A DNA stretch of 64,000 nucleotides from positions 898,657-962,656 of the forward strand of contig NW_004457442.1 in NCBI RefSeq assembly GCF_000313135.1, in the 5' to 3' direction. The notes beneath the pieces were generated by a model that was given only the letters and a program-made list of their open reading frames with translations, ran no database searches and was not told where the DNA came from. This stretch comes from Acanthamoeba castellanii str. Neff (lineage: Eukaryota; Discosea; Longamoebia; Acanthamoebidae). Positions 41,701 through 56,349 of this stretch are shown piece after piece (position 1 is the stretch's first letter; each line of letters opens with the position of its first letter). The translations under genes were made by a program, and so were the position numbers.

Positions 41701-43521
41701 TCAAGATGCAGGGCCGCCGGCAAAGAAGTAGTTGTAGACAGACATGACGAGCAAGTAGAGGCTGCACACATCAACGTCGGTGTGTACGACACATACACAC
41801 ACATGCCCCGATCAGAGGTGTGCCTCACACATCAAACGAGCTCAAACACACACGCGACACACACGACACACATACGACACATGACACACACACAAGCACG
41901 CGCCGTACCTGAGAACTTTGATGCCGACCGTGGCCTGTGCATGGAGGTGTTGTGTTGTGGAGGTGGCGGAATGGAGGTGAGCACAGAGTTGTGCGGAAGA
42001 AAAACAGCAAAGCAAAGGGGACCCGTACCAGAATGTATAGCACAGTGCCCAGCCGACCGAGCAGCCAGACAAGTAGAGCGCGCCATTCGCTCCGCCGCGG
42101 TGGCTGCTGTTTGAGCGGTTGCTGCACGTCTGTCGCCGTAGGTGTGGTCGAGTCGCCGAGAGGAAGAGGAGCGGGAATGTCGCTCGCCGCCGGGGCGGCT
42201 TCTTCGAGAGCGGGCGTGGTGATGAACATCACCTCTCGGTTGCTCTGCGCCGATACGCTGATGCTGCTGTGCGTGCTTACCTTCAGCGAGTAGGAGAGCT
42301 TGTTGTCGCCGTGGTACTGGGTGGCCTTGCCCATGGACCGAAACGCCTTCGCCGGTGGCGATGCAGACGGCGAAGTCGACGAGGCCGGCGATCGCGATGA
42401 CGAAGGTCCCACCACAGCCGCCACCCGAGTCGGAGACACACCGCGGTGCTCGCCGACAGGTGAAGACGAGGCGGGAGGGTCGAAGCTATCCGCTTCTTGA
42501 GTTGCGATTGCGTTCCAGGCCTCAGCGTAGGCGTCGTTGCTATGGGAAGAGGCTGGTGCCTTGACCACGCTGAATCTGTACCTGTAGGTGTATAGGGCAA
42601 GGGGATCAGAACTGCGCAACACCACGGGGCTGGTACGAGAGAGTCGAGCAACCAACCCTATCAGAGTCCGGCGCTCGCCCGGCGAACTCATCAAAACAGT
42701 GATGGTGTCCCTGCACGAACGTCAGTTGTCAAAACGGGGATGCGCAGCATACGACGCGTCGGTCCAAGTCTAGTTGCATACCTGTGGCAGAGCTCCCGCT
42801 CCACGCCTTTGCCCAGCAATTCATCGTTGAGGTGTGTGCCATTCGCTGCGTTCGAGGTAGCATGAACATGGAGAGGACAGAGGCGTATGTGAGACTAAAC
42901 AGACGTAGATGGGGGCACCCGTGGGTACAACGCACCGGAGAGGTCTTTGAGGAAGAAGCATCGTTTCGTAGAAGATGCATGCCGCTTGCGCTTCGCGCTC
43001 CTCCCTGCATGGGTCTCTGGCACCCGCCCGCAGCGAATCTCAAAGTGCTGTCGGCTGATGCGATCGAGCCCAATCCGATGGAAGGAGCTTGAGGTGGCAA
43101 ACTGCTCGCGTCCGATGCTGAAGGTCTTGTCCGGCCGCCATCTCTTTTGGATGACCCGCGTTCTTCTGCCCTGTACCGCCTCTCCGAACAGCTCCAGCTG
43201 GCAACCGAAGTAGCCGTCCCCATCTTCGTCTACGGCTTCTGCATTTCCATCACTCGACACGTCGAGCTCCATCGTTGCCTCCTCAGAATCGTCGTCGCCT
43301 TCCTCTTCTTCCTCCTCTTTAGCATACTCGTTCTGCTTTGCCCTCTTCCTGCTACTCTCCACACGCTTCTCTGCGCCCTTACTCTTGCGCCCTGACTCCA
43401 AGTCATCGCGGTGCCGCTTATTCGCCTGTTCGAATTCGAAAGTGGGCGCAATACCTTCGTCATAATCTTTGTCCTGGTCTGTGCGCTTTCGTTTGTGGGC
43501 ACTCGATGCAGGCTCCTCCAT
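41701..43521 (-). CDS. FHA-domain protein with C-terminal membrane segments
   Basis: Starts MEEPASSAHKRKRTDQDKDY, followed by ~100 residues of acidic and basic low complexity that look nuclear or nucleolar. The FHA domain, a phosphothreonine reader, runs from about residue 125: TFSIGREQF, FHRIGLDRISRQHFEI (the S-x-x-H core), and CFFLKDLSANGTHLNDELLG, which crosses an intron and includes the NGT turn that closes the phosphopeptide pocket. It continues with a Ser/Pro-rich linker and two hydrophobic stretches near the end (ALLVWLLGRLGTVLYILV and LLVMSVYNYFF), ending FFAGGPAS. An FHA domain anchored to a membrane is unusual; the basic N-terminus may indicate the nuclear envelope. It is divergent from the RasGAP gene, with 246 bases between starts. 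Confidence 0.78.
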
Positions 43522-43767
43522 CTTCGCGCGCAAGGCAGCTCAAGGCCAACGACGAAAACGAAGCCACTTTCGTTTCGTTTCGTTTCGTTTCGTTTCGTTT
43601 CGTTTCGTTTCTTTCATTTCATTTTGTTTTTAAATTGGTTGAGGTTCGCCGAGCACGAGACGGAACTAGGCGTGTTTGCAATCGGTCGCTGGGATACGGA
43701 TCTTGCGGGAAAAAGGACCGCCACTTGTGCGGACAGTACCCAAAACCGCTCAACAAGAAGGGTCATC
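43522..43767. promoter_or_regulatory. Divergent promoter region between FHA gene and RasGAP-A
   Basis: This 246-base interval contains eight tandem TTTCG units at 43568-43607 and then a T-rich run. A bidirectional promoter is inferred from the head-to-head layout. The pentanucleotide could act as a transcription-factor-binding or nucleosome-excluding element. Confidence 0.45.
43568..43607. repeat. (TTTCG)8 pentanucleotide
   Basis: Eight perfect TTTCG units sit in the shared upstream region of two divergent genes. This is one of the few simple repeats in the window that is not inside an intron. Confidence 0.92.
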
Positions 43768-46700
43768 ATGTCGCTGCGGGTGCGCCTCGCCATCGTGGCC
43801 CTTGCACTTTTCCTGTGCCTTGTGCACAATGCGGGTACGTCGACGAACTCACGAGGTGGATGCCCAGCTGTGGTGGAATATGGCTGACCGTTGGTTTTCA
43901 TCAATCATCAATCTTTAATCATCTTCATCTATGGACCCAGTAGTGGTCGAGGGGTTCAACATGACGCTGCTGCACACACAAGACACCTACGGCTCCGTGG
44001 TGGCCGTCACAAAGCTGAACGCGGCCTGCGCCCCCTTTACCAACGGCTCCTACCCGCCCAAGTGCTTTGGAGGCCTGGGCCGCCGCATGTCCTACATCGA
44101 CGCCGCGCGCAGCGCCCACACAAACGTCCTCCTCGTCGACGGCGGCAACTTCCTCACCGGTACCACCCCTCCCTTGAGCCCTCCCGTTCTTCTCCTACCG
44201 TTGGACCACTCGTTAGTTACACTTCTCCTTTCGTCGCTTTCCGGGTCTAGGCGTTAAAGCACGAATAAGATCGCGTTTTATTATTTGTTTGTTTTTTTGT
44301 TCTTTTCTTTGTTTGAAAAGGGCTGACACTCACACTCTCTCTCCTCTATCTGTGCTCTCTAGACTCGCCGTTCGAGGCGGCCGGTGGCGCGGAGGCTCTC
44401 GGTCAGTTCTACACCACCTTGGGTACTGTGTCCGGGATCGTTGCTCCTTTAATTTCACGCTTCTGGGCACTCTGTCGTTGTGTGCTCGTGGTGACCGTTT
44501 TTTGTTTGTTTGGTTGACAACCTGCCAATCGTCGCTTACCCTTTTACTCTCCAACCTGTTATTGGTGGACACGAATGTGAATGCGCACCCACAGGGTACA
44601 GCATCCTCAAGTTGGGGGACCACGACGTGGCCGACCCCGTCAAGGTGCGCATTCGCTGGGCTGTGCTTAAAGCTTATCCTTGATTGGGCAGCTGGCCTGA
44701 TTCGTGTACGAATGCCTGACCGCGGTGCCTTGTCGGTCTTGCAGCTGGGCAAGTTCCTGGGTGCCGTGGACAATGTCACGATCGTGGCGTCGAATCTCAT
44801 CAACACCCGCAACGACTCGCACCTGGGCAACTACACGATCGACACCTATGCCATCCACACCTTTGCCGGCGGCGAAAGGGTACGGACGGCACTCCGCTGT
44901 CGCCGGTATTACACCCGCTTAGACGTATCGCCAACACAACACAACGTCGTTGCGTGTGCGTGTGCGGTGGTGCATGTGCGGTGGTGCGTGTGGTAGGTGG
45001 GCTTCTGCGGAGGTGTGAGCAAGTCCATTCGGGTCAAGATCACTACAGATACAGTCGTGGTACCATCGCTTTTCCACAACAGGACATCAAAGGCAATGTG
45101 TGCGCTCACCACCCCTTCATTCCACGCACGTGTGTGCAAAAGGACTCTATAAACGAGGTGCAGGCACTCAAGGCCGCTGTCGGCAAACTGACCAACCTCG
45201 GCGGTGCGTGTCCGACCCTCCCACTACCTTGTTACCTCCGTGGCTGATGCATTGTTGCCAAAAACAGTCAACAAGATCATCGCGACCATCTACGACGAGA
45301 CGCTCATTGGCACCGTCATCAACGAGGTAGTGGGCATCGATGTGCTCATCGTTCACGGTGAATTGTACATTACCAGCCCCACCGGTACCGCGCCTTACTC
45401 TCACCTTTCGCGCTGTTCACTCTCGGATCCCTCGTTTCCGACTCATCGAGCCTTTCCCGCCCCCGCCAATCAGTTTCTATGAACGACGAGATCTTTGGCG
45501 TTCACCCGACGATCTACAATGTACCCTCCGCCTTGCCCCGCGCCTTTGGCTTGTGGTCTTCTCCCACTCACAGCTTCCATTTTTTCGCCCCCCCCCATTC
45601 GTGTTTAGGTGGATTGGGGCCAACCGGTGCTGGTAGTGGGCTCGGGATCGTTCGGCAAGTACATCAGCCAGCTCGACCTCGAGTTCGACCAGTACGGAGT
45701 CATCACGGCCTGGGTACACTCCCTTCCGCCTCTGGGCTCCGAGCTAACGTCACCATTCCCGACTCACCCACTCACGCGCTTCACTCGATGGTCTTCTCCT
45801 CAATGATCAGGGCGGTGACGCGCATATCCTCACGTCGAGCTACCCCGAAGCTGCCTCCGTGGAGGTACGCACGCGCTGCGCATTTCTTCTTCTTCCTTCT
45901 TCTGCTGCTGCTGCTGCTGCTGCGTTCTGATCGTCAATGAAATGAAACTTCATGGCTCCTCTTCTTCTCACTCCTCGCCCCTTTTAATAGGACGACGTGG
46001 TGAACTACTACACGGATGTGGTGGCGGCCCTGTACACGACGCAAGTCGGCACGGCGGGCGCCGACATCAGCTACGATGGGAGTTGCAACATAACCGAGTG
46101 CGCGATCGGCAGCTGGCAGGCCGACCAGCTGCGCCGGGCGACCAACACCTCGATCGGCATGATCAACAGCGGCAGCGTTGGGTACGCTTTGCTGCGCAAG
46201 CTTCATCACTGGCCTGGCCGCCGCTGACCGCTGCCACCCTCTATCGCGGCACCTGTACAGCGGTGGCTGGGCCGAGGGACCCATTATGGCCATCGACGTG
46301 CAGACGGTGGTCAAGTACGGCCAGGACTTTGTCTACACCATGTCCGTCACCGGCGCCGAACTCCTCGAAGCGCTCGAGAACTCCGTGTCCCTGATCAACA
46401 CCGGACGATTCGTTCAGGTTCGTCGCCGTAGTTTCTTCCCCCCCCCAAGCTTCTACCCATGCGCACCGAACTCACCGCACACGCACACGCACACGCACAC
46501 CCACCACCGCACACGCACACGCACACCCACCACCGCACACGCACACGCAGATTTCTGGTCTCAAGTTCTCCTGGAACAGCAACCAAGATGTCGGTTGGCG
46601 CGTGGTGAACGCTTGGAGTATCGACTCTGAGGGCCGGGCCGAGCTGATCAACAACAACACGCGCTACTCGCTCTCCATGCTGGACTTCATGGCCAAGGGC

Positions 46701-47866
46701 GGCGACGGCTACACCATCTTCTCCACCAACGGCTCCAACGTGCTCAATTTCGGCTACACGCTCAATCAGGTGATCCTCCAACATCTGGGGGCCGAAATCG
46801 CTATGCCTGGCATCGCGCCCAGGATTGTGAGCAGCTCTGCCGTGAAGCGCAACTGCCTTGCCGCGGACGGCTCCCTGTGCAACAGCAACGGCCTGTGCGT
46901 CTCAGGCGCCTGCCAATGCGACCCAGGCACCGCCGGTTCGTCGCATGGCCTCTCGCGTAGTTGCGTGCGTGCGTGCGCTCTATGGTTCGCAATTGACCTC
47001 GTGCGCGTGACAACTTGTCGGCAGGCGCGCATTGCAGCCCGGTCAGCTCCTCCAGCTCGAGCGACAACACGACCGCGATCGTGTTGGGCGTGGTGCTGCC
47101 TCTCGTCTTTCTCCTGCTCATTTTGGCCATCATCTGCGCCCTCCTCCTGTGGGGCTACATGAAGTACAAGCAGCCCAAGCTGGTACTCAAGGTACAACTC
47201 ACGCCGTATTATTCTTATTTATTATTTTTTATTCTTATTCTGATTATTCAACTAATAAGCATCAGAAAAAAATGATAATAATGATAATAACTACAACAAT
47301 TATTTATTATTATTTTTTTGTGTTCTCTTCTACCTGCAGGAGCCCAACTTCCAGGTGTTGGTGTGGCGCCGGGAATCGATGGAGGACAAGGCCATCATGG
47401 CCAAGAAGATCAACGTCAAGGTGGGTGCCGTGCTCGAGAAGTTCCTGCTGGACAAGCACGTGGTCAAGGCCCTCAGCGGGGTGATCCACGTCAAGCGCAC
47501 CTACATCGACGAGGTGTCGGCCGCGCTGATGCTGGTGCACCAGTCGTCCAACAAGGGCACCAAGCTCATCAAGACCCTGCTCAAGCACGAGCTCCTCTCC
47601 GAGGACGAGAAGGTGCTGTTCCGCGAGGAGACGCTGGGCGTCAAGGCCTTCTCCGTGTTCAGCCGCATGGTCGGCCTGCCCTACCTCTGGTCGGTGTTTG
47701 CCTACCCCATCGCCGAGCTCGAGATGGCCAACAACTCAGACGATATGGCCTCGCCGCGGCTTAAGTCCAACGTCTCTGACAACGACGCCGTCCCCCTGCA
47801 GAGCATTTTTTCCATCACCAACACCATCGAGGTACCGCACAAGGCACAACCAACGCACAAGGCACA

Positions 47867-47937
<71 letters not shown>

Positions 47938-48509
47938 ACATAGGCTGCTCTGTTAATTGGTTTCTTCTCTTCCTTGGCGTTGGGCAGATCAACCCGAAGA
48001 ATATGGAGGAGGGCCAGGATGACTCGATCGGGCGGCTGCAGCTGGAGCTCATCCTGCAGAAGCTGCTCTCACGCATCACCGACTCCCTGCCCCACTTCCC
48101 GCTGTACCTGCGGCAGCTGTGCCACATGCTCTACGAGGACATGCGCTATGACCACCCGGACTACATCCACCGCGTGCTGGGCAACCTCATCTTCCTCCGC
48201 TTCATCGTACGTTGCGCCCAGTCTACGTAGGTGAGCAGCCACCACAAGCTCACCTCGCCCCTTATTCTTCTTCTTCTTCGCATTGCGCAGTGTCCGTCGC
48301 TGCTGGTGCCCCAGAACTACGGCCTGGTCAAGGAGCACACCCACGCCAAGACGCACCGGACGCTGATCCTGATCGCCAAGGTGCTGCAAAACCTGGCCAA
48401 CAAGAACGACTTCAGCGGCAAGGAGGAGTTCATGGAGTCCATGAACGGCTTCATCCACCGCAACATCACCAAGGTACGCCCTATCGTCGCTCCCATCGCT
48501 GGTCCTGGG

Positions 48510-48546
<37 letters not shown>

Positions 48547-49149
48547 GTGTGTGTGTGTTGTGTGTGTGTGTTGTGTGTGTCGTGTGTGTCGTGTGTGTTG
48601 TGTGTGTGTTGTGTGTGTGTGTGAGTGCTGGCCAACCGACGGTGGTGTCGCTTGTGTCTTCTACCAGTTGGAGGCATTCTTCAATCACTTGTGTGAGCCG
48701 ACGGATGAGCCCAAGTTCGGAGACCCGCCAACGTCGATCGTGCCGCGACAGTTCAAGAAGAAGGCAATGTTGGTCATGCACCAGTTTGTCCAATCGCACG
48801 CCAAGGAGATCCACGACGAGCTCAACGAGTTCCCCAGCTATGAAGTCAAGGTTTTTCCCTCCACCCACCACACGCGCGCAACACACATGACACACACGAC
48901 GCACGACGCACGACGCACGACACACACACCACTCCGGACCTCACCGCTTGCGCACGTGCCGTTGATGATGACATTTGGGGCTAATCGTGTGCACGAATGC
49001 AGAGCGCGCTGGAGCAACTCAAGTACCTCGCGCAAGAGGTGGACACACTTAATGAGGACGAGGACGACGATGATGACAGCAGCACGAGTGATCAGGACGA
49101 GCTCGACAGGGCCGACGAGACGGCGCTCACGCCCCGACCACAGGCCTAG
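43768..49149 (+). CDS. Receptor-like RasGAP A: signal peptide - 5'-nucleotidase-like ectodomain - EGF - TM - RasGAP
   Basis: The signal peptide is MSLRVRLAIVALALFLCLVH. The ectodomain follows the 5'-nucleotidase plan: LLHTQDTYGSVVAVTK, LLVDGGNFL, YSILKLGDHDVADP, LIVHGELYI, GQPVLVVGSGSFGKYISQLD, then a 5'_nucleotid_C domain (CNITECAIGSWQADQLR, IGMINSGSVG, FVYTMSVTGAELLEALENSV, GRFVQISGLKFSW). Canonical metal motifs (D-x-H, GD, GNHE, GHxH) are mostly changed, so hydrolysis is doubtful. A six-Cys EGF-like module (CNSNGLCVSGACQC) precedes one helix (AIVLGVVLPLVFLLLILAII). The cytoplasmic part (47340-49149) is a RasGAP domain: VLFREETLGVKAFSVFSRMV with the FR arginine finger, IFLRFICPSLLVP, and HRTLILIAKVLQNLANKNDF. 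The tail is acidic. Inferred role: a surface receptor that lowers Ras-GTP on ligand binding. It is followed 410 bases later by a paralogue. Confidence 0.88.
46482..46550. repeat. CACACG/CCACCACCG repeat in RasGAP-A intron
   Basis: CACACG units interrupted by CCCACCACCG fill the intron between GRFVQ and ISGLKFSW. Confidence 0.8.
47871..47934. repeat. (AC)32 dinucleotide in RasGAP-A intron
   Basis: A pure AC tract lies in the intron at 47832-47987, between exons FSITNTIE and INPKNMEEG. Confidence 0.92.
48511..48622. repeat. Compound GT / GTGTTGTG repeat in RasGAP-A intron
   Basis: A (GT)n run is followed by GTGTTGTGTG and GTGTCGTGTG variants, between exons HRNITK and LEAFFNHLC. Confidence 0.85.
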
Positions 49150-49559
49150 GCCTAGGCCAGCCGATGATAATCGCCACCTCCCCACCACCAATAGTGGTCC
49201 CTTTCCTTGCCCACCATCCCTACCCCCACTTTGACCCACCCTCCCTCATCACCGACTTCGAATGTTCCATTCTGGCCTGCTAAGGCGGCCACACAGACCC
49301 GTCAATACAGTTTTGCATCACCCAGCTCGACGAGCAGATAAAATTGACAAAAAGAGAGCAGATAAAAATTGTACCATAAGCGAAGCCCGCTTATGAAGCG
49401 TGTGCTATTGGTCCTGCACTCCGCAGCGGCAGTTCCTCCGGAAGTACGCGAACAGCGGATCGGCATCGCTTGTCACCCTTGTCTCGTGCCCCGTCGCCCG
49501 GAGCCAGCCGTCAACATTCAAGCGAGTACACACGCAACTCGCCGCCACCACAAGCCACA
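49150..49559. other. Intergenic stretch between the RasGAP paralogues
   Basis: The 410 bases are C/A-rich after the RasGAP-A stop (CCCACC tracts), with AT-richer sequence near 49320-49375 that includes GATAAAA. I see no gene. It should hold the terminator of copy A and the promoter of copy B. Confidence 0.5.
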
Positions 49560-52500
49560 ATGGACCCCCGGCGAGGCCTCTACACCTTTTTGTTCGTCTT
49601 TTTTCTCACTGCCTCGGGTACGCACGTTGAACCTTTCCTAACCTTCACTACCACCCCCCCCCCATTAACTCATCTTGACACCGCCAGGGGTGACCGGGTG
49701 GAACCTGACGGTGGTGCACTCGGGCGACACGTTCGGGGCCGTGGTGGCCGTCAACGTGGCCAACAACCCGTGTGCGCCCACCGACACGTCCTACACGTCG
49801 GACCTGCCCTTCTGCCTGGGCGGGGTGGCCCGTCGCGCCGCCCTCATCGCCCAGCTTCGAAATGACAGCGCACACGCGCTGGTCGTGGACACTGGCAACA
49901 GCCTCCCGGGTATGCCGCTCCCGCCTCGCCGCTTTTCTCCGGCCGAGGTCTTCGTCTTCGCTGTTCGTCTTCGCTGTTTTGTCGTCGCTTTCGTTCTTTC
50001 TGGCCGATGCAGGGGGTCAAACGATGGTATCTAATTCTGTCTTCGTGTGTGGACTGCAGGAGCCAACTACTTCCTCTTCAGCCCGGAGCTGGTGACCAAC
50101 TACACCAAGGGCGTGGGCTACGACGTCGTCAAACTTGACCTCTACGACATGCAGGGCGGTCTCAGCGTGGTACGTGTCCACACGTGCGCGTGCCGCAGAG
50201 ACATCATAACTGACCATGGCTGCCATGGCTCCATTATGGCGATCGTTGCGGGTGTGTGCGGAGCGCAGTTGAGCTCGTTCCTGGCTGCCATGGAGGCCGA
50301 CGGCGCGACAGCGGTGTGTTCCAACCTGGTGGGGATGCAGAACGAGTCCGCGCTGGCAAACCTGACCGTCCAGCAGTACGCCACCATCGGCTACACCGAC
50401 GGCCAGAAGGTGGGGTTCGCCGGCACCATGCCCGCCAACATCGCCGGCCTCGTCTCCCAGCCCGGTCGCCTGGTACGCACCTTGTCCGACGCCCCGGACC
50501 CGCTTTAGTCTGTTTCTGTCGCGTGTGAGTGGTTCCACACCCACCGTCTCACCACTCACTCGCTTCGCCCCAGGACTCGACCGAGGAGATCATGGCGCTG
50601 CAGGTGGCCGTGGGCAGCCTGCTCAACGAAGGAGGTGCGTTGATTGGAGCGTTTTGGGGCTTGTTCTGACACTAATTCCTCTTCTTCATCATCATCACCT
50701 TCTTCTTCTTCTTCTTGGTGCTGTATAGTGAACAAGATCGTGGTGGCGGTGAGCAACCTGCGGCTGGTGGAGCCGCTCGTCCAGCGCGTGCTGGGCATTG
50801 ACGTCGTGCTCGTGCAGGGCCAGTTCTACGCCAACCAAAACGGTACTAACTCACCAAAAGCCCACCCCACTTTGCTCTTTGCGCCCCTTTTCACGCCAGG
50901 CCCTCGTGTGTGGGTTGGGGTCATAGATTCGGAGACTCCGATCGGCCCGTACCCGGTGGTGGAGCGGCTCCTGTGGAAGCAGAAGGTGTGCATCGCCGGC
51001 GTGGGGGTGTGGGGCAAGCACGTGGGCAAGCTCGACGTCGTGTTCGACGAATACGGAGTGGTCGAGAGCTGCTCTGGCGACGCCGTCCCGTTGGACGATG
51101 ACATCACGCCCGTGGCCAGCATTCAGGTGACCATGTGCACTTGTGCAACGACACGCACGACACGACACGCTGGATTGCTGCTGTTTCGCTCACTTGAATC
51201 GATACCCAGGCGGAGGTGATTCAAGACTACAACCGTTCGATGGCCGGTCTTAGCCGAGTAATCGGCTCGGCCGAGGTGCCGCTGGACTACAACGTAAGCA
51301 CACTGCTTTCTCCTTTCTTTTTCTTTTTCTTTTCTTTTATTGTTTGTTTAAACGCACGTTTGCTTGTGCTCCTGCACTCACTGGTTATACGTCGCAGCAT
51401 CGATGCATGTTTGGCGAGTGCGGTCTGGGCAGCTGGACCGCAGAGGCGCTTAAGAAAGCCGGCCGGACCGAGATCGGAATCGTCAACGGCGGCTCCTTCG
51501 GGTAAACACTCTTTCTCACTTACGCAAGCACGCACGCGCGCACGCACACAACACAACACAACACAACACAACACACACACACACCGGTCGAGCTGATCAC
51601 CACCGCACGCACGCACTGGTAGAGGGTCGGTCGAGGCGGGCAACGTCACGCTGGCGCAGTTCGTGCGATCGTTCCCGTTCCCGGCCGACTTGATCGTGAC
51701 AATGGACCTCAAGGGCAAGCACCTGCTCGAGGTGCTCGAGCACTCGGTGTCCCTCTCCAACGAGACCTCCTTTGAAATTTCGCAGGGCATCGGACGCTTC
51801 CTCCAGGTGCGAACCACCATCCTTCGTTCTTTGCCTTTCGCTTTCGCCTCGCTTTCGTTCTTTCTTCTAAACACCTTCGTTCACAGGTGTCGGGGCTTCG
51901 GTTCACATTCAATGCGAAGGAGTCCGTCGGGATGCGCATCGTCAACGTGTGGGTGCAAGACTCTGCGATCGCCGCCGCCGCGACGACCACCCAGCGGGCC
52001 ACCACCTGGACGCTGGTCGATCCCGAGCGCGACTACTCGCTCACCACCATCTCTTACATCTCGAGCGGACAGGACGGCTACGCGGTCATCCCCGCCAACG
52101 CCCAGAACGTGCAGACCACCGTCCGCACCGCCGAGAACGTGCGCCGCCTTGCGATTCGTTCATTTTATTATTATTCTTTTTATGTTTGATTGACCAGTCC
52201 TGGTGCAGGTGTATCGAGAGGGCTTGGCTGCGGGTCCGATCACGGGCTTTGCCACGGGTCTCATCGTGACCAGCACCGCCTCACGCCGGACCTGCATCGC
52301 GCCCGGCTCCACCACCGAGCTGCTGTGCAACGGCAACGGCGACTGCATCGCCGGCTCCTGCGAGTGCACCGCCCCTGGCGCCACTGGTTCACCGCACCTC
52401 CCTCTCCGGTATCCAACCACCAATCGATTGCTCATGCGTGTCGCGTCGCGCGTGCCGTGCCGTGCCGTACCGCGTGTTGTGTCGTTGGTCGTGCCGTGCG

Positions 52501-53073
52501 TGTCATGTGTCGTGCCGTGTGTGTCGTTGGTCGTGTGTCGTGTGTCGTGTCGTGTGTAGGCGAATTCTGCGACTTCTCGTCATCGTCGTCGGGCTCGGAC
52601 GACACTCTGGCGATTGCGTTGGGCGTCATTCTGCCGCTGGCGTTCATGGCGGTGGTGCTGGCGGTGCTGGTCGCCGTGCTCGTGCTCGGGTACATGCGGT
52701 ACCGGCGGCCGAAGCTCATCCTCAAGGAGCCCAACTACCAGCTGCTCGTGTGGCGCCGGGACTCGCTGGAGGCCGGGGCCGAGGTCAAGATGCTGCCCAT
52801 GCGCCGCCTCAGCGTCAAGGTGCAGACCGTGCTCGAGGAGGTACCACCTACAACCCGCTTGCTGCTTGATCCGTTCGCGCTCGCTTGGGACTGAAGTCGG
52901 CTTGTCGTGTGCGTCGTGTGCGTCGTGTGCGTCGTGTGCGTCGTGTGCGTCGTGTGCGTCGTGTGTCATCAAGTTCCTGATGGACAAGCACGTGGTTCAG
53001 GCCATTGGCAACGTCGCCCACGCCAAGCCTTCGTCGAGCGACGAAGTGGCCGCAGCCATGGTACCCACCACAC

Positions 53074-53112
<39 letters not shown>

Positions 53113-54637
53113 AAGGCATGGCTCACAGTGACTGAGCTGTCGCCCGATGGGCGCGCAGATGCTGGTGTACCAGTCGTCTGACAAGGGCACGGACCTGATC
53201 CGGCTGCTGCTCAAGAACGAGCTCATGGCGCTCGACGACGAGAAGGTGCTGTTCCGCGAGGACACGCCCGGCGTGCAGGCCTTCTCCGTCTTCAGCCGCA
53301 TGGTCGGCCTGCCCTACCTCTGGAACACCTTCGCGCTCCCCATCGCCGAGCTCGAGCTCGCCAACAACGCCCACGTACCCACCCGTCATCATCATCGGCA
53401 TCATCACCATCACCATCACCATCGTCATCGTCATTTTGATGAAGTGTCACACTCACTTCTGTGCCTTTGCTTTCAGCTCGGGAGCAACCCGTCGAAGAGC
53501 AATGTCACCGACAGCGACCCGGCGCCGCTCGGGACCATCTTCTCGCTCACTACCTCGGTCGAGGTACCTGCCCCACACAGGTGAGGTGCACAGTTGTCGG
53601 GTGGGCGGGGGAGTGACCTTGGTGCGTGCGTGCGCCGACGACCAGATCAACCCGAAGCACCTGGAGGAGGGCCAGGACAACTCGGTCGGGCGACTGCAGC
53701 TGGAGCTCATCCTGCAGAAGCTGGCCACCCGCATCTTCACCTCCCTGCCCTACTTCCCGCTGTACCTGCGGCAGCTGTGCCACATGCTCTACGAGGACAT
53801 GCGCTACGACCACCCGGACTACATCCACCGCGTGCTGGGCAACCTCATCTTCCTCCGCTTCATCGTACGTTGTCGCCGACCCACGCGCGTGTGCGGTGGC
53901 GTGTGCGTGTGCGGTGGTGCGTGCGTGTGCGTGTGCGTGTCAGTGCTCATGCCCGCGATGAGTGCAGTGCCCGGCGCTGCTGGTGCCACAGAGCTACGGC
54001 CTAGTCAAGGGCGAGGTGCACCCAAAGACGCACCGGACGCTGATCCTGATCGCCAAGGTGCTGCAGAACCTGGCCAACAAGAACGACTTCAGCGGCAAGG
54101 AGGAGTTCATGGAGGTCATGAACGGCTTCATCGAGCGTAACGTCGGCAAGGTACAACTTCACCCTCCACGTATCAAAAGTATATTATATATCAACGTTTC
54201 TTTGTTTATGTAATATATATATGCAAATATATGTCCCTCACCATCTTCATGACAACCTGATCGCCACAGTTGGAGGAGTTCTTCAACGGCCTGTGCGCGG
54301 AGACGGACGAGCCGCGGTTCGGAGACCCGCCGACGTCGATCGTGCCGCGGCAGTTCCGCAAGAAGGCCCTCACAGTCCTGTACCAGTTCGTGCGATCGCA
54401 CGGCAAGGAGATCCACGACGAGCTGAGCGAATTCCCGCCCTACGCCGTCCAGGTACGTCGTCTTTGGCGCCAGTGTTATCGGCAATGACAATGAATGTGG
54501 TCTGACCAAGACCTGGTGTCGTGGTCGTGTAGGAATCGCTTGAGCGGCTCAAGTACATCACGCGAGACATTAACATCAGGGACTTTGCCAGCAGTGACGA
54601 AAGCGAAAGTGAATCCGAGGCAGAAGGCAGCCGATGA
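49560..54637 (+). CDS. Receptor-like RasGAP B: tandem paralogue of RasGAP A
   Basis: Same architecture as its upstream neighbour. The signal peptide is MDPRRGLYTFLFVFFLTASG. The 5'-nucleotidase-like ectodomain has LTVVHSGDTFGAVVAVN, ALVVDTGNSLPG, GYDVVKLDLYDM where GNHE is expected, and IDVVLVQGQFY where GHxH is expected. Its 5'_nucleotid_C part has TEIGIVNGGSFG and IGRFLQVSGLRFTF. An EGF-like module (CNGNGDCIAGSCEC) and one helix (LAIALGVILPLAFMAVVLAV) follow. The RasGAP domain has VLFREDTPGVQAFSVFSRMV with arginine finger, YIHRVLGNLIFLRFICPALL, and HRTLILIAKVLQNLANKNDF. The tail is Ser/Glu-rich (SSDESESESEAEGSR). The intracellular half is much closer to copy A than the ectodomain is, which suggests the two bind different ligands but share one Ras output. 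Copy B has three introns in the GAP part that A lacks. Confidence 0.88.
52841..52973 (+). other. Copy-B-specific intron made of a 9-base minisatellite
   Basis: It lies between VLEE and FLMDKHVV. The donor is GTACC and the acceptor is CATCAAG, and the matching site in copy A is uninterrupted. The core (52904-52957) is six perfect copies of GTCGTGTGC plus a partial seventh. Confidence 0.85.
53061..53158 (+). other. Copy-B-specific intron containing a CA tract
   Basis: It lies between the adjacent Met codons of AAAM and MLVYQSS, donor GTACCC and acceptor GCGCAG. Copy A reads AALMLVHQ without interruption. A CA tract runs over about 53070-53112. Confidence 0.85.
53375..53476 (+). other. Copy-B-specific intron with imperfect CAT/ATC repeat
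   Basis: It lies between NNAH and LGSNPSKS, donor GTACCC and acceptor TTTCAG. It contains CATCATCATC, CACCAT and GTCAT units over about 53386-53435. Copy A has no intron here. Confidence 0.8.
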
Positions 54638-54795
54638 CCGGTGAACAATTAAATTTTATTTTTATTAGTGCCAAATAAAAAACTTTTCCAGCAATTTTCT
54701 TGCCAGCACACCAGAGTGGGCTGATCGCACATCATCTCCATCTCGTGAAGAAGAAAACAGAGCCGCAACCCTTCGCCTTCGATTCAACACTCAAA

Positions 54796-55502: not shown

Positions 55503-56349
55503 TTAGAAGCCGAGGACACCCTTGTTCTTGACCACCTTGGCGTTGACACCGTCGGGAATGATCCTGCCCTCGCTCTTGAGCTGCAGGTACTCCTCCCTCT
55601 GGAGGGGAGTGAAACCCCACTTGTTGGAGAGGACGATCTTTTGCCTGCCGGGGAACTTGTACTTGGCACGGCGGAGGGCCTCGATGACGTGGGCCTTGGA
55701 GTTGTCCTTGGAACGGACAGAGAAGAGGATCTGACCGATCTTGACGCGAGCGACGCAACCAGCGGGCTTACCGAAGGCACCACGCATACCAGTCTGCAGT
55801 CTGCAGGCGTGCATGGTGAGAATGGGTACAGAAAAACAATGGATGAAAATGAAGAGAGGGCGAGGGGCGTAAGCGTACCTGTCAGCACCGGCGCACGACA
55901 ACATCTTGTTGATACGGAGGATGTGGTAGGGGTGCACGCGGACCCTCATGTGGAAGGAGTCCTTACCAGCCATCTTGGTGATGTACTTGTTGCACGAGAT
56001 ACGGGCAGCCTCAAGAGCCTCCGAGGAGATCTGCTCGTGCTCCCACGACAGAAGGTGGGCAACGAAGGGGAACTCATCCACGCCGGCCTTCTTCCTGCCG
56101 AGATCGTAGATCCTGAGCTTGGGCTCGGGGACACCACGGCAGTAGCGGGACTTGATGTAAGGCTTGTTCTTACAGTAGCGGTAGCAACGAGCGGGTCCTA
56201 AGAATTGCGCATGATTCGATTAACAATTTGCATCAAACGGGTCATAGGTCTGATTCCATAGAGGATCAACCACCACGCAGCACAAGAACGGGCAATACAT
56301 GTAGGCACACATAGAAGCGAGAGATGCAGGGGTACGTACTGCGTCCCAT
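55503..56349 (-). CDS. RPL10: 60S ribosomal protein L10 (uL16)
   Basis: Three exons: 56340-56349 (10 bases, ATG plus two codons and one base), 55879-56197 and 55503-55800. They give 208 residues. The sequence [20 protein letters not shown], the block [20 protein letters not shown], the central [20 protein letters not shown] and the end VKNKGVLGF are typical of eukaryotic L10, which sits near the tRNA corridor of the large subunit and joins late in its maturation. The very short first exon with an intron right after the start is common in ribosomal-protein genes. The first donor is GTACGTACC. Confidence 0.97.

Follow-up and report, generated by a model that had tools for sequence, protein, structure and literature searches.

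Tandem genes of Acanthamoeba castellanii predicted to encode single-pass receptor RasGAPs with a degenerate 5'-nucleotidase-like ectodomain

We analysed a 64,000-nucleotide stretch of the Acanthamoeba castellanii str. Neff genome (the window; contig NW_004457442.1, positions 898,657 to 962,656, assembly GCF_000313135.1), in which two adjacent genes, gene 1 (G1) and gene 2 (G2), each encode a signal peptide, a 5'-nucleotidase-like ectodomain, a six-cysteine EGF-like module, a single transmembrane helix and a RasGAP domain (Table 1). This layout had been proposed from the sequence in an original prediction made without database searches, and it is confirmed here by 38/38 GT-AG introns with no internal stops, by Pfam and by a third copy elsewhere in the genome. 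The interval proposed for the pair proved exact, with the ATG of G1 at 43768 and the final base of the G2 stop codon at 54637.

Both models were assembled manually from translations in three frames and from the homology between the two genes, using genomic sequence alone. When a splice-site matrix from one gene was scored on the other, the chosen donors had medians of 5.77 and 4.15, whereas all GT gave -0.97 and -1.82, and the chosen acceptors had medians of 4.16 and 2.74, whereas all AG gave -6.41 and -6.68. Our own gene finder, whose training set comprised G1, G2 and kinase open reading frames, regained 18 of the 20 exons of each training gene with the ends wrong, and is not an independent test of the models. 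The third copy, G3 (locus L017), lies on an unlinked contig (C79) and was outside that training set; after hand correction it has 22 exons, 21/21 GT-AG introns and 1059 amino acids. Introns match in both position and phase in 14/19 cases for G1 in G2, 16/19 for G1 in G3 and 18/19 for G2 in G3. Because a single G2 exon joins the end of the EGF-like module, the transmembrane helix and the start of the cytoplasmic part, the doubt over whether ectodomain and GAP are fused is answered as far as genomic sequence allows. Neither AATAAA nor ATTAAA occurs in the 410 bases that separate G1 from G2 to mark where the G1 transcript ends.

Searches of the spliced models against Pfam-A placed 5_nucleotid_C and RasGAP above their curated cut-offs in both genes, two of the three profiles that the original prediction had named for a check; the third, Metallophos, was unmatched in either gene up to an E-value of 1. 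The PF00616 scores were 91.3 bits for G1, 96.5 for G2 and 61.8 for the gene-finder version of G3 (cut-off 28.3), and that version of G3 matched 5_nucleotid_C at 8.2e-24 and RasGAP at 1.1e-16. All EGF profiles fell under their cut-offs, the best being EGF_Teneurin (24.2 bits against 24.3); six cysteines lie within the 60 residues preceding the transmembrane core in each of G1, G2 and G3. No kinase or cyclase match was found in G1 or G2 in Pfam-A. Given the Pfam and phmmer E-values and an unlinked copy of identical layout, we exclude a chance arrangement.

The net charge flanking the transmembrane helix is -1 (G1) and -2 (G2) before it and +3 and +5 after it. N-glycosylation sequons number 10 outside versus 3 inside in G1 and 8 versus 1 in G2 (with a G2 sequon at residue 25, at the edge of the range, uncounted), and their density per 100 residues in G1, G2 and G3 is 1.78, 1.36 and 1.16 outside and 0.71, 0.25 and 0.25 inside. 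Together with an N terminus that by eye resembles a signal peptide, the positive charge on the GAP side and the denser sequons outside support a predicted topology with the ectodomain out and the GAP in. The receptor-like RasGAP layout that had been claimed is supported and recurs in all three copies. Each copy ends in an acidic, Ser-rich C-terminal tail.

Table 1. Coordinates of the tandem genes and their parts (window positions; residue ranges in brackets)
Feature	Position	Strand	Basis or remark
Gene 1 (G1)	43768..49149	+	20 exons, 1033 residues; 19/19 introns GT-AG, 0 internal stops; phases set by homology to gene 2
G1 exons	43768-43834, 43941-44159, 44363-44422, 44595-44644, 44745-44879, 44997-45059, 45143-45203, 45268-45384, 45474-45520, 45609-45713, 45811-45864, 45991-46181, 46261-46417, 46551-46935, 47025-47191, 47340-47831, 47988-48206, 48291-48473, 48668-48850, 49003-49149	+	
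G1 signal peptide (1-22)	43768..43833	+	by eye from sequence; Kyte-Doolittle 2.65
G1 degenerate metallophosphatase-like N domain (29-330, spliced)	43958..46002	+	paralogue G2 aligned to PDB 2z1a; metal ligands lost
G1 5_nucleotid_C (356-500, spliced)	46078..46724	+	Pfam PF02872, 1.3e-26
G1 six-Cys EGF-like module (544-574, spliced)	46854..47035	+	cysteine pattern; EGF profiles under cut-off
G1 transmembrane helix (586-612)	47069..47149	+	Kyte-Doolittle 3.37
G1 juxtamembrane EPNFQVL motif	47340..47360	+	sequence; similar motif at equivalent position in other receptor RasGAPs
G1 RasGAP domain (702-900, spliced)	47565..48401	+	Pfam PF00616, 1e-25
G1 arginine finger R721	47622..47624	+	alignment
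Gene 2 (G2)	49560..54637	+	20 exons, 1043 residues; 19/19 introns GT-AG, 0 internal stops; AATAAA/ATTAAA at 54648 and 54674
G2 exons	49560-49617, 49688-49909, 50060-50169, 50269-50472, 50574-50634, 50729-50842, 50927-51126, 51210-51293, 51398-51501, 51623-51806, 51887-52138, 52209-52386, 52560-52840, 52974-53060, 53159-53374, 53477-53563, 53646-53864, 53968-54150, 54270-54452, 54533-54637	+	
G2 signal peptide (1-20, spliced)	49560..49689	+	by eye from sequence
G2 degenerate metallophosphatase-like N domain (24-330, spliced)	49699..51230	+	phmmer against PDB 2z1a, 2.2e-37; metal ligands lost
G2 5_nucleotid_C (340-514, spliced)	51258..52087	+	Pfam PF02872, 1.8e-29
G2 six-Cys EGF-like module (560-594, spliced)	52293..52570	+	cysteine pattern; EGF profiles under cut-off
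G2 exon 13	52560..52840	+	last EGF cysteine, transmembrane helix, juxtamembrane segment and start of GAP-side region in one exon
G2 transmembrane helix (607-634)	52607..52690	+	Kyte-Doolittle 3.11
G2 juxtamembrane EPNYQLL motif	52727..52747	+	sequence; similar motif at equivalent position in other receptor RasGAPs
G2 RasGAP domain (726-924, spliced)	53195..54078	+	Pfam PF00616, 2.6e-27; PDB SynGAP, p120GAP, NF1
G2 arginine finger R746	53255..53257	+	alignment

The ectodomain resembles 5'-nucleotidases over its full length: in phmmer searches, residues 23-530 of G2 matched the 5'-nucleotidase chain 2z1a at 2.2e-37 and residues 23-515 a chain named CD73 at 2.6e-29. Although the ectodomain aligns with CD73 and bacterial 5'-nucleotidases across about 500 residues, it differs from them in that the metal site is gone and a transmembrane helix and RasGAP tail have been added. 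We counted residues in eight rows, namely G1-G3 and the five well-covered of the receptor-kinase ectodomains described below, two partial kinase rows of the ten being excluded. None of the eight rows retains the first His, the bridging Asp, the GNHE Asn, the LSH His or either GHSH His; six retain the first metal-site Asp and two the catalytic GNHE His. The GHSH region is gapped in the alignment, and by eye a His stands in neither place in any row; G1 has a His (IVHGEL) one or two columns off this site and keeps the His of its GNHE-like motif. The N-terminal nucleotidase domain is thus present in the predicted proteins, yet degenerate. At the positions that we take to correspond to N390 and D506 of CD73, the equivalent residues are retained in 8/8 rows, and the F500 equivalent is aromatic in 8/8. 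We read the ectodomain as a probable dead enzyme that has lost catalysis and partly kept a nucleoside pocket, perhaps to act as a sensor. The proposed 5'-nucleotidase fold stands on the 5_nucleotid_C match and the full-length similarity, but the two-metal site is lost and the fold is not private to RasGAPs, since receptor kinases carry it too.

The best-scoring solved relatives of the RasGAP domain in the PDB are SynGAP, p120GAP and NF1, and IQGAP chains also match. With SynGAP, p120GAP and neurofibromin, which are not known to be receptors with an ectodomain, it has in common the GAP core and arginine finger by alignment, and the FLR and QNLAN motifs. Arg occupies both the finger and the FLR position in G1, G2 and G3; in QNLAN of G3, S replaces the second Asn.

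To place these domains in the genome, we grouped 53 exon matches, a lower bound, into 35 RasGAP loci. A transmembrane helix immediately precedes the GAP domain at 11 of the 35: G1, G2, G3, C90, three members of the C9 tandem cluster, C203, C85, C101 and C246. A twelfth receptor type, C9c, is assigned by likeness to its neighbours, its transmembrane region lying outside the fetched sequence. Models other than those of G1-G3 are machine-made and contain errors, some of them fusing neighbouring genes; loci L001-L008 were viewed with about 1.5 kb per side and L044-L048 over 2.2-2.5 kb, where a distant ectodomain or transmembrane helix could escape. Hydrophobicity just before the GAP is 2.35-3.41 in the receptor types. 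Among the loci scored as non-receptor, a weak hydrophobic stretch (2.13) precedes the GAP in L043, and the stretches of L027, L029, L030, L032 and L041 are weak or distant (1.8-2.4). By eye, the RasGAP model of L043 stands behind an eIF4E-like stretch and that of L041 behind WD40-like repeats.

In a tree of 29 GAP domains, a branch with support 98/99, recovered in 98% of 200 bootstrap trees, separates the 12 receptor types from the 17 others. This tree is unrooted, the receptor label was assigned before it was built, the C90 row sits on a long branch (2.37), and seven loci with too little aligned domain are omitted (L007, L029, L030, L041, L044, L045 and L047). The arginine finger is found in 12/12 receptor types, and other RasGAPs of the genome carry it too; FLR is legible in 11/12, the model of C9b being out of frame there. 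A juxtamembrane motif, [EQ]P[DN][YF]xx(hydrophobic), occurs in the 11 receptor types whose transmembrane region was fetched. The spacing from the finger to E[IL][DN]P is 66-97 in ten of the 12 receptor types, 60 in C9a (a partial model) and about 53, counted by hand after a script misreading, in C90CUB, versus 39-43 in the nine of 17 non-receptor rows that gave a value and 40 in p120GAP (a hand count from the alignment); the corresponding insert is small or unclear in C9a and C90CUB. The ectodomain of C90 (L026) matches GDSL lipase (2.1e-9) and, in three stretches, CUB (6e-40). Its GDS and DGFH stretches are visible, and this protein may still be an enzyme. Some Pfam matches stay under the cut-offs, and their names are to be taken as leads: LamG in C203 and in two of the three pieces of C9, and PKD and Ig in C85. 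A single transmembrane-GAP ancestor whose ectodomains were exchanged later would fit these data.

The two halves of the tandem genes differ in divergence: identity between G1 and G2 is 36% for the ectodomain and 82% for the GAP core. At fourfold third positions of the GAP core, G1 and G2 agree at 0.85, whereas they agree with the unlinked G3 at 0.53 and 0.50; by exon, third positions as a whole agree between G1 and G2 at 0.93, 0.84 and 0.71. In the GAP-core exons at 47988-48473 and 53646-54150, the silent sites of the pair are far more alike than those of either gene and G3. Ectodomain fourfold identity is 0.42-0.49, which looks near saturation. Because the silent sites of the tandem pair are so much closer to each other than to the unlinked copy, these results point to gene conversion in the GAP half, which would keep the outputs alike while the ectodomain inputs diverge. 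The same pattern could also arise if G1 had exchanged its ectodomain once a recent duplication had taken place.

Searching the genome with G2, we found the ectodomain-EGF-transmembrane unit on eight further contigs, with the main matches 36-40% identical and open frames of 438-901 residues. In a Pfam scan of four frames, those of L009 and L012 continue into a kinase over the cut-off and that of L013 into a kinase under it; the L010 frame gave 5_nucleotid_C alone, at 1e-3, and the start of a kinase is visible by eye. L015, from the same set, retains the remainder of a kinase. In an ectodomain tree, G1-G3 cluster together (97/97), separate from seven kinase receptors. At L009-L012 (contigs C190, C207, C94 and C64) most of the ectodomain lies in one open frame, as against the many introns of the G1-G3 ectodomain, and this difference bears on the direction of module exchange. 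Four further receptor kinases, L019, L020, L021 and L022, match the EGF-transmembrane part of G2, and the EGF stalk therefore looks like a common module. L019 combines this part with a cyclase and two stretches of kinase. L022 pairs a PBP-like ectodomain with two such kinase stretches and gave no cyclase match.

Clarke et al. described 67 nucleotidyl cyclases of A. castellanii with an extracellular receptor domain, one transmembrane helix and two flanking kinases (PMC4053784). By term counts in the main text of that paper, 'nucleotidase' is absent and 'Ras' occurs once. The published class is defined by its cytoplasmic part; by our own criterion, the ectodomain-EGF-transmembrane unit, G1 and G2 have a part in common with the receptor-kinase loci, but they lack the kinase-cyclase-kinase cytoplasmic part and have RasGAP as their output. 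Giant viruses are said to have the kinase-cyclase layout (PMC4053784). Scanning viral contigs with the GAP tail and a kinase-receptor ectodomain gave no relative, single-protein queries of this kind reaching close relatives only.

A plexin ectodomain is made up of sema, PSI and IPT domains. The plexin cytoplasmic GAP profile and the sema ectodomain were unmatched in G1 and G2 up to an E-value of 1 (Pfam-A). Plexins are receptors whose cytoplasmic GAP, structurally homologous to RasGAPs and bearing an arginine finger, inactivates Rap upon ligand-induced dimerisation (PMC3787391), and they form one of six human RasGAP groups (PMC12871552). The original assertion that known RasGAPs are cytosolic or peripherally attached omits these receptor GAPs. 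G1 and G2 resemble plexins in being predicted single-pass surface receptors with a RasGAP-homologous cytoplasmic domain, an arginine finger and a juxtamembrane segment, and differ from them in lacking the plexin ectodomain and the Rho-binding domain of the plexin cytoplasmic part. They are predicted to work like plexins but are not members, their domain matching PF00616 and SynGAP, p120GAP and NF1. The receptor-GAP principle is thus already known from plexins; the family, the ectodomain and the lineage are different here.

Among amoebozoans, twelve putative RasGAPs are reported in Dictyostelium, where NF1 controls macropinocytosis and phagocytosis (PMC4374526). The LOV photoreceptor section of PMC4758236 includes a Physarum RasGAP-PB1-PAS-SAM-PB1 protein, which is likewise an amoebozoan RasGAP fused to a sensor domain; unlike in G1 and G2, the domains listed there include no ectodomain, and the passage describing it mentions no transmembrane helix. 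We found no description of this transmembrane RasGAP layout in the open-licence literature, with subscription papers, supplements and eukaryotic protein databases outside the search. A comparison of G2 with a set of 5.8 billion proteins scored 7992 candidates, none at 1e-3; even RasGAPs and 5'-nucleotidases were not returned, so we take it as uninformative.

Around the pair, an RFX DNA-binding domain gene (PF02257, 2.4e-21) lies on the minus strand at about 38.7-41.4 kb, its extent judged by eye; the Acanthamoeba genome paper lists RFX as one of its abbreviations (PMC4053784). The divergent neighbour at 42898-43539 (minus strand) looks by eye to have a basic N terminus and, after it, an FHA-like stretch (FSIGR...RISRQHFEI), and was unmatched in Pfam up to 0.01. 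Downstream, G2 is bounded by adjoining genes for an Sm-like protein from 54797 onwards on the plus strand (LSM, 8.5e-18, exons joined by eye) and for ribosomal protein L10e at 55506-56219 on the minus strand (Ribosomal_L16 family, 3.2e-33).

We propose that G1-G3 are single-pass surface receptors in which a dead-nucleotidase ectodomain gates a membrane-held RasGAP through a ligand or partner, ending Ras or Rap signalling, and we would put the probability of this at roughly 0.6. Binding of a partner protein or of a ligand, which may be a nucleoside or nucleotide, would alter the conformation or dimerisation of the ectodomain; this change, passed through the EGF stalk and the transmembrane helix, would turn the GAP up or down, and Ras (or Rap) signalling would be ended at that membrane patch. 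Plexins provide a precedent for gating of a GAP by receptor dimerisation (PMC3787391), and a ligand-gated Ras or Rap off-switch is plausible as a whole. The layout, the missing metal site, the catalytic residues of the GAP and the family with its common GAP branch can be read from the sequence; the surface location, nucleoside binding and swapping of ectodomains are predicted. Several points weigh against this proposal. GAP activity, ligand gating and the fused product are predictions from genomic sequence, in which Ras cannot be told from Rap as the target. In the GAP domain, the second Asn of QNLAN is S in G3, and the CUB type is without this motif. In the ectodomain, the R354 equivalent is lost in 8/8 rows and that of R395 kept in just 3/8, RK_C234, one of the excluded partial rows, carries D in place of N390 and L in place of D506, and invariant columns make up 7.9% of those scored, so that two pocket positions out of two are suggestive only; the pocket reading also depends on the CD73 numbering assumed here.

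It is possible, if unlikely, that the GAP is instead constitutively active, the transmembrane helix merely anchoring or sorting it and the ectodomain serving adhesion or particle capture rather than gating. Where it has a Y, the juxtamembrane motif resembles a YxxPhi sorting signal (G1 has F), and ectodomains of the family include CUB and weak LamG or Ig-like matches, which are frequent in adhesion proteins; however, the presence of the same ectodomain-EGF-transmembrane unit on kinase domains of this genome speaks for signalling, and the extra loop in the GAP, absent from the nine other rows scored, would be fit for regulation. We consider it quite improbable that the cytoplasmic domain binds GTPases as a scaffold and has no GAP activity: IQGAP chains are among the PDB matches and IQGAP RasGAP domains are described as catalytically inactive (PMC12871552), but all 12 receptor types have the finger and the top solved relatives lie elsewhere, in SynGAP, p120GAP and NF1. 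Merging of separate ectodomain and GAP genes in our models would be a greater surprise still. The way in which the models were built and the lack of a polyadenylation hexamer between G1 and G2 would allow it, yet G2 exon 13 spans the junction, phases fit throughout, and G3 repeats the layout on another contig with most introns in agreement. We give almost no credence to an ectodomain that still works as an ecto-5'-nucleotidase, for which the overall similarity, the 5_nucleotid_C match and the two G1 histidines could be cited, given that six metal-ligand positions, including both GHSH histidines, are substituted in every row and Metallophos is unmatched.

The original interpretation is partly supported, being right in outline and incomplete on the receptor-GAP precedent and the dead ectodomain; the direct control of Ras, and the role in chemotaxis or macropinocytosis, that it suggested are plausible predictions. 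More tentatively, and with more doubt than belief, we suggest that amoebal receptor RasGAPs arose apart from plexins as a transmembrane-GAP chassis with exchangeable ectodomains of dead 5'-nucleotidase, GDSL-CUB or LamG/Ig-like type, and that kinase-cyclase and RasGAP receptors both employ the dead nucleotidase to sense purines. A single extracellular cue could then raise one signal through kinase-cyclase receptors while shutting Ras off. Explanations of how Ras is turned off by an outside cue usually invoke the recruitment of cytosolic GAPs. In amoeboid uptake Ras activity is shaped by RasGAPs, and a family of surface-receptor GAPs would offer a direct route from cue to Ras inactivation as well as a defined gene set for deletion. 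Such a family in amoebae would suggest that the plexin-type principle arose more than once. If one ectodomain serves kinase as well as GAP outputs, a single genome would suffice to test whether receptors evolve by exchanging modules.

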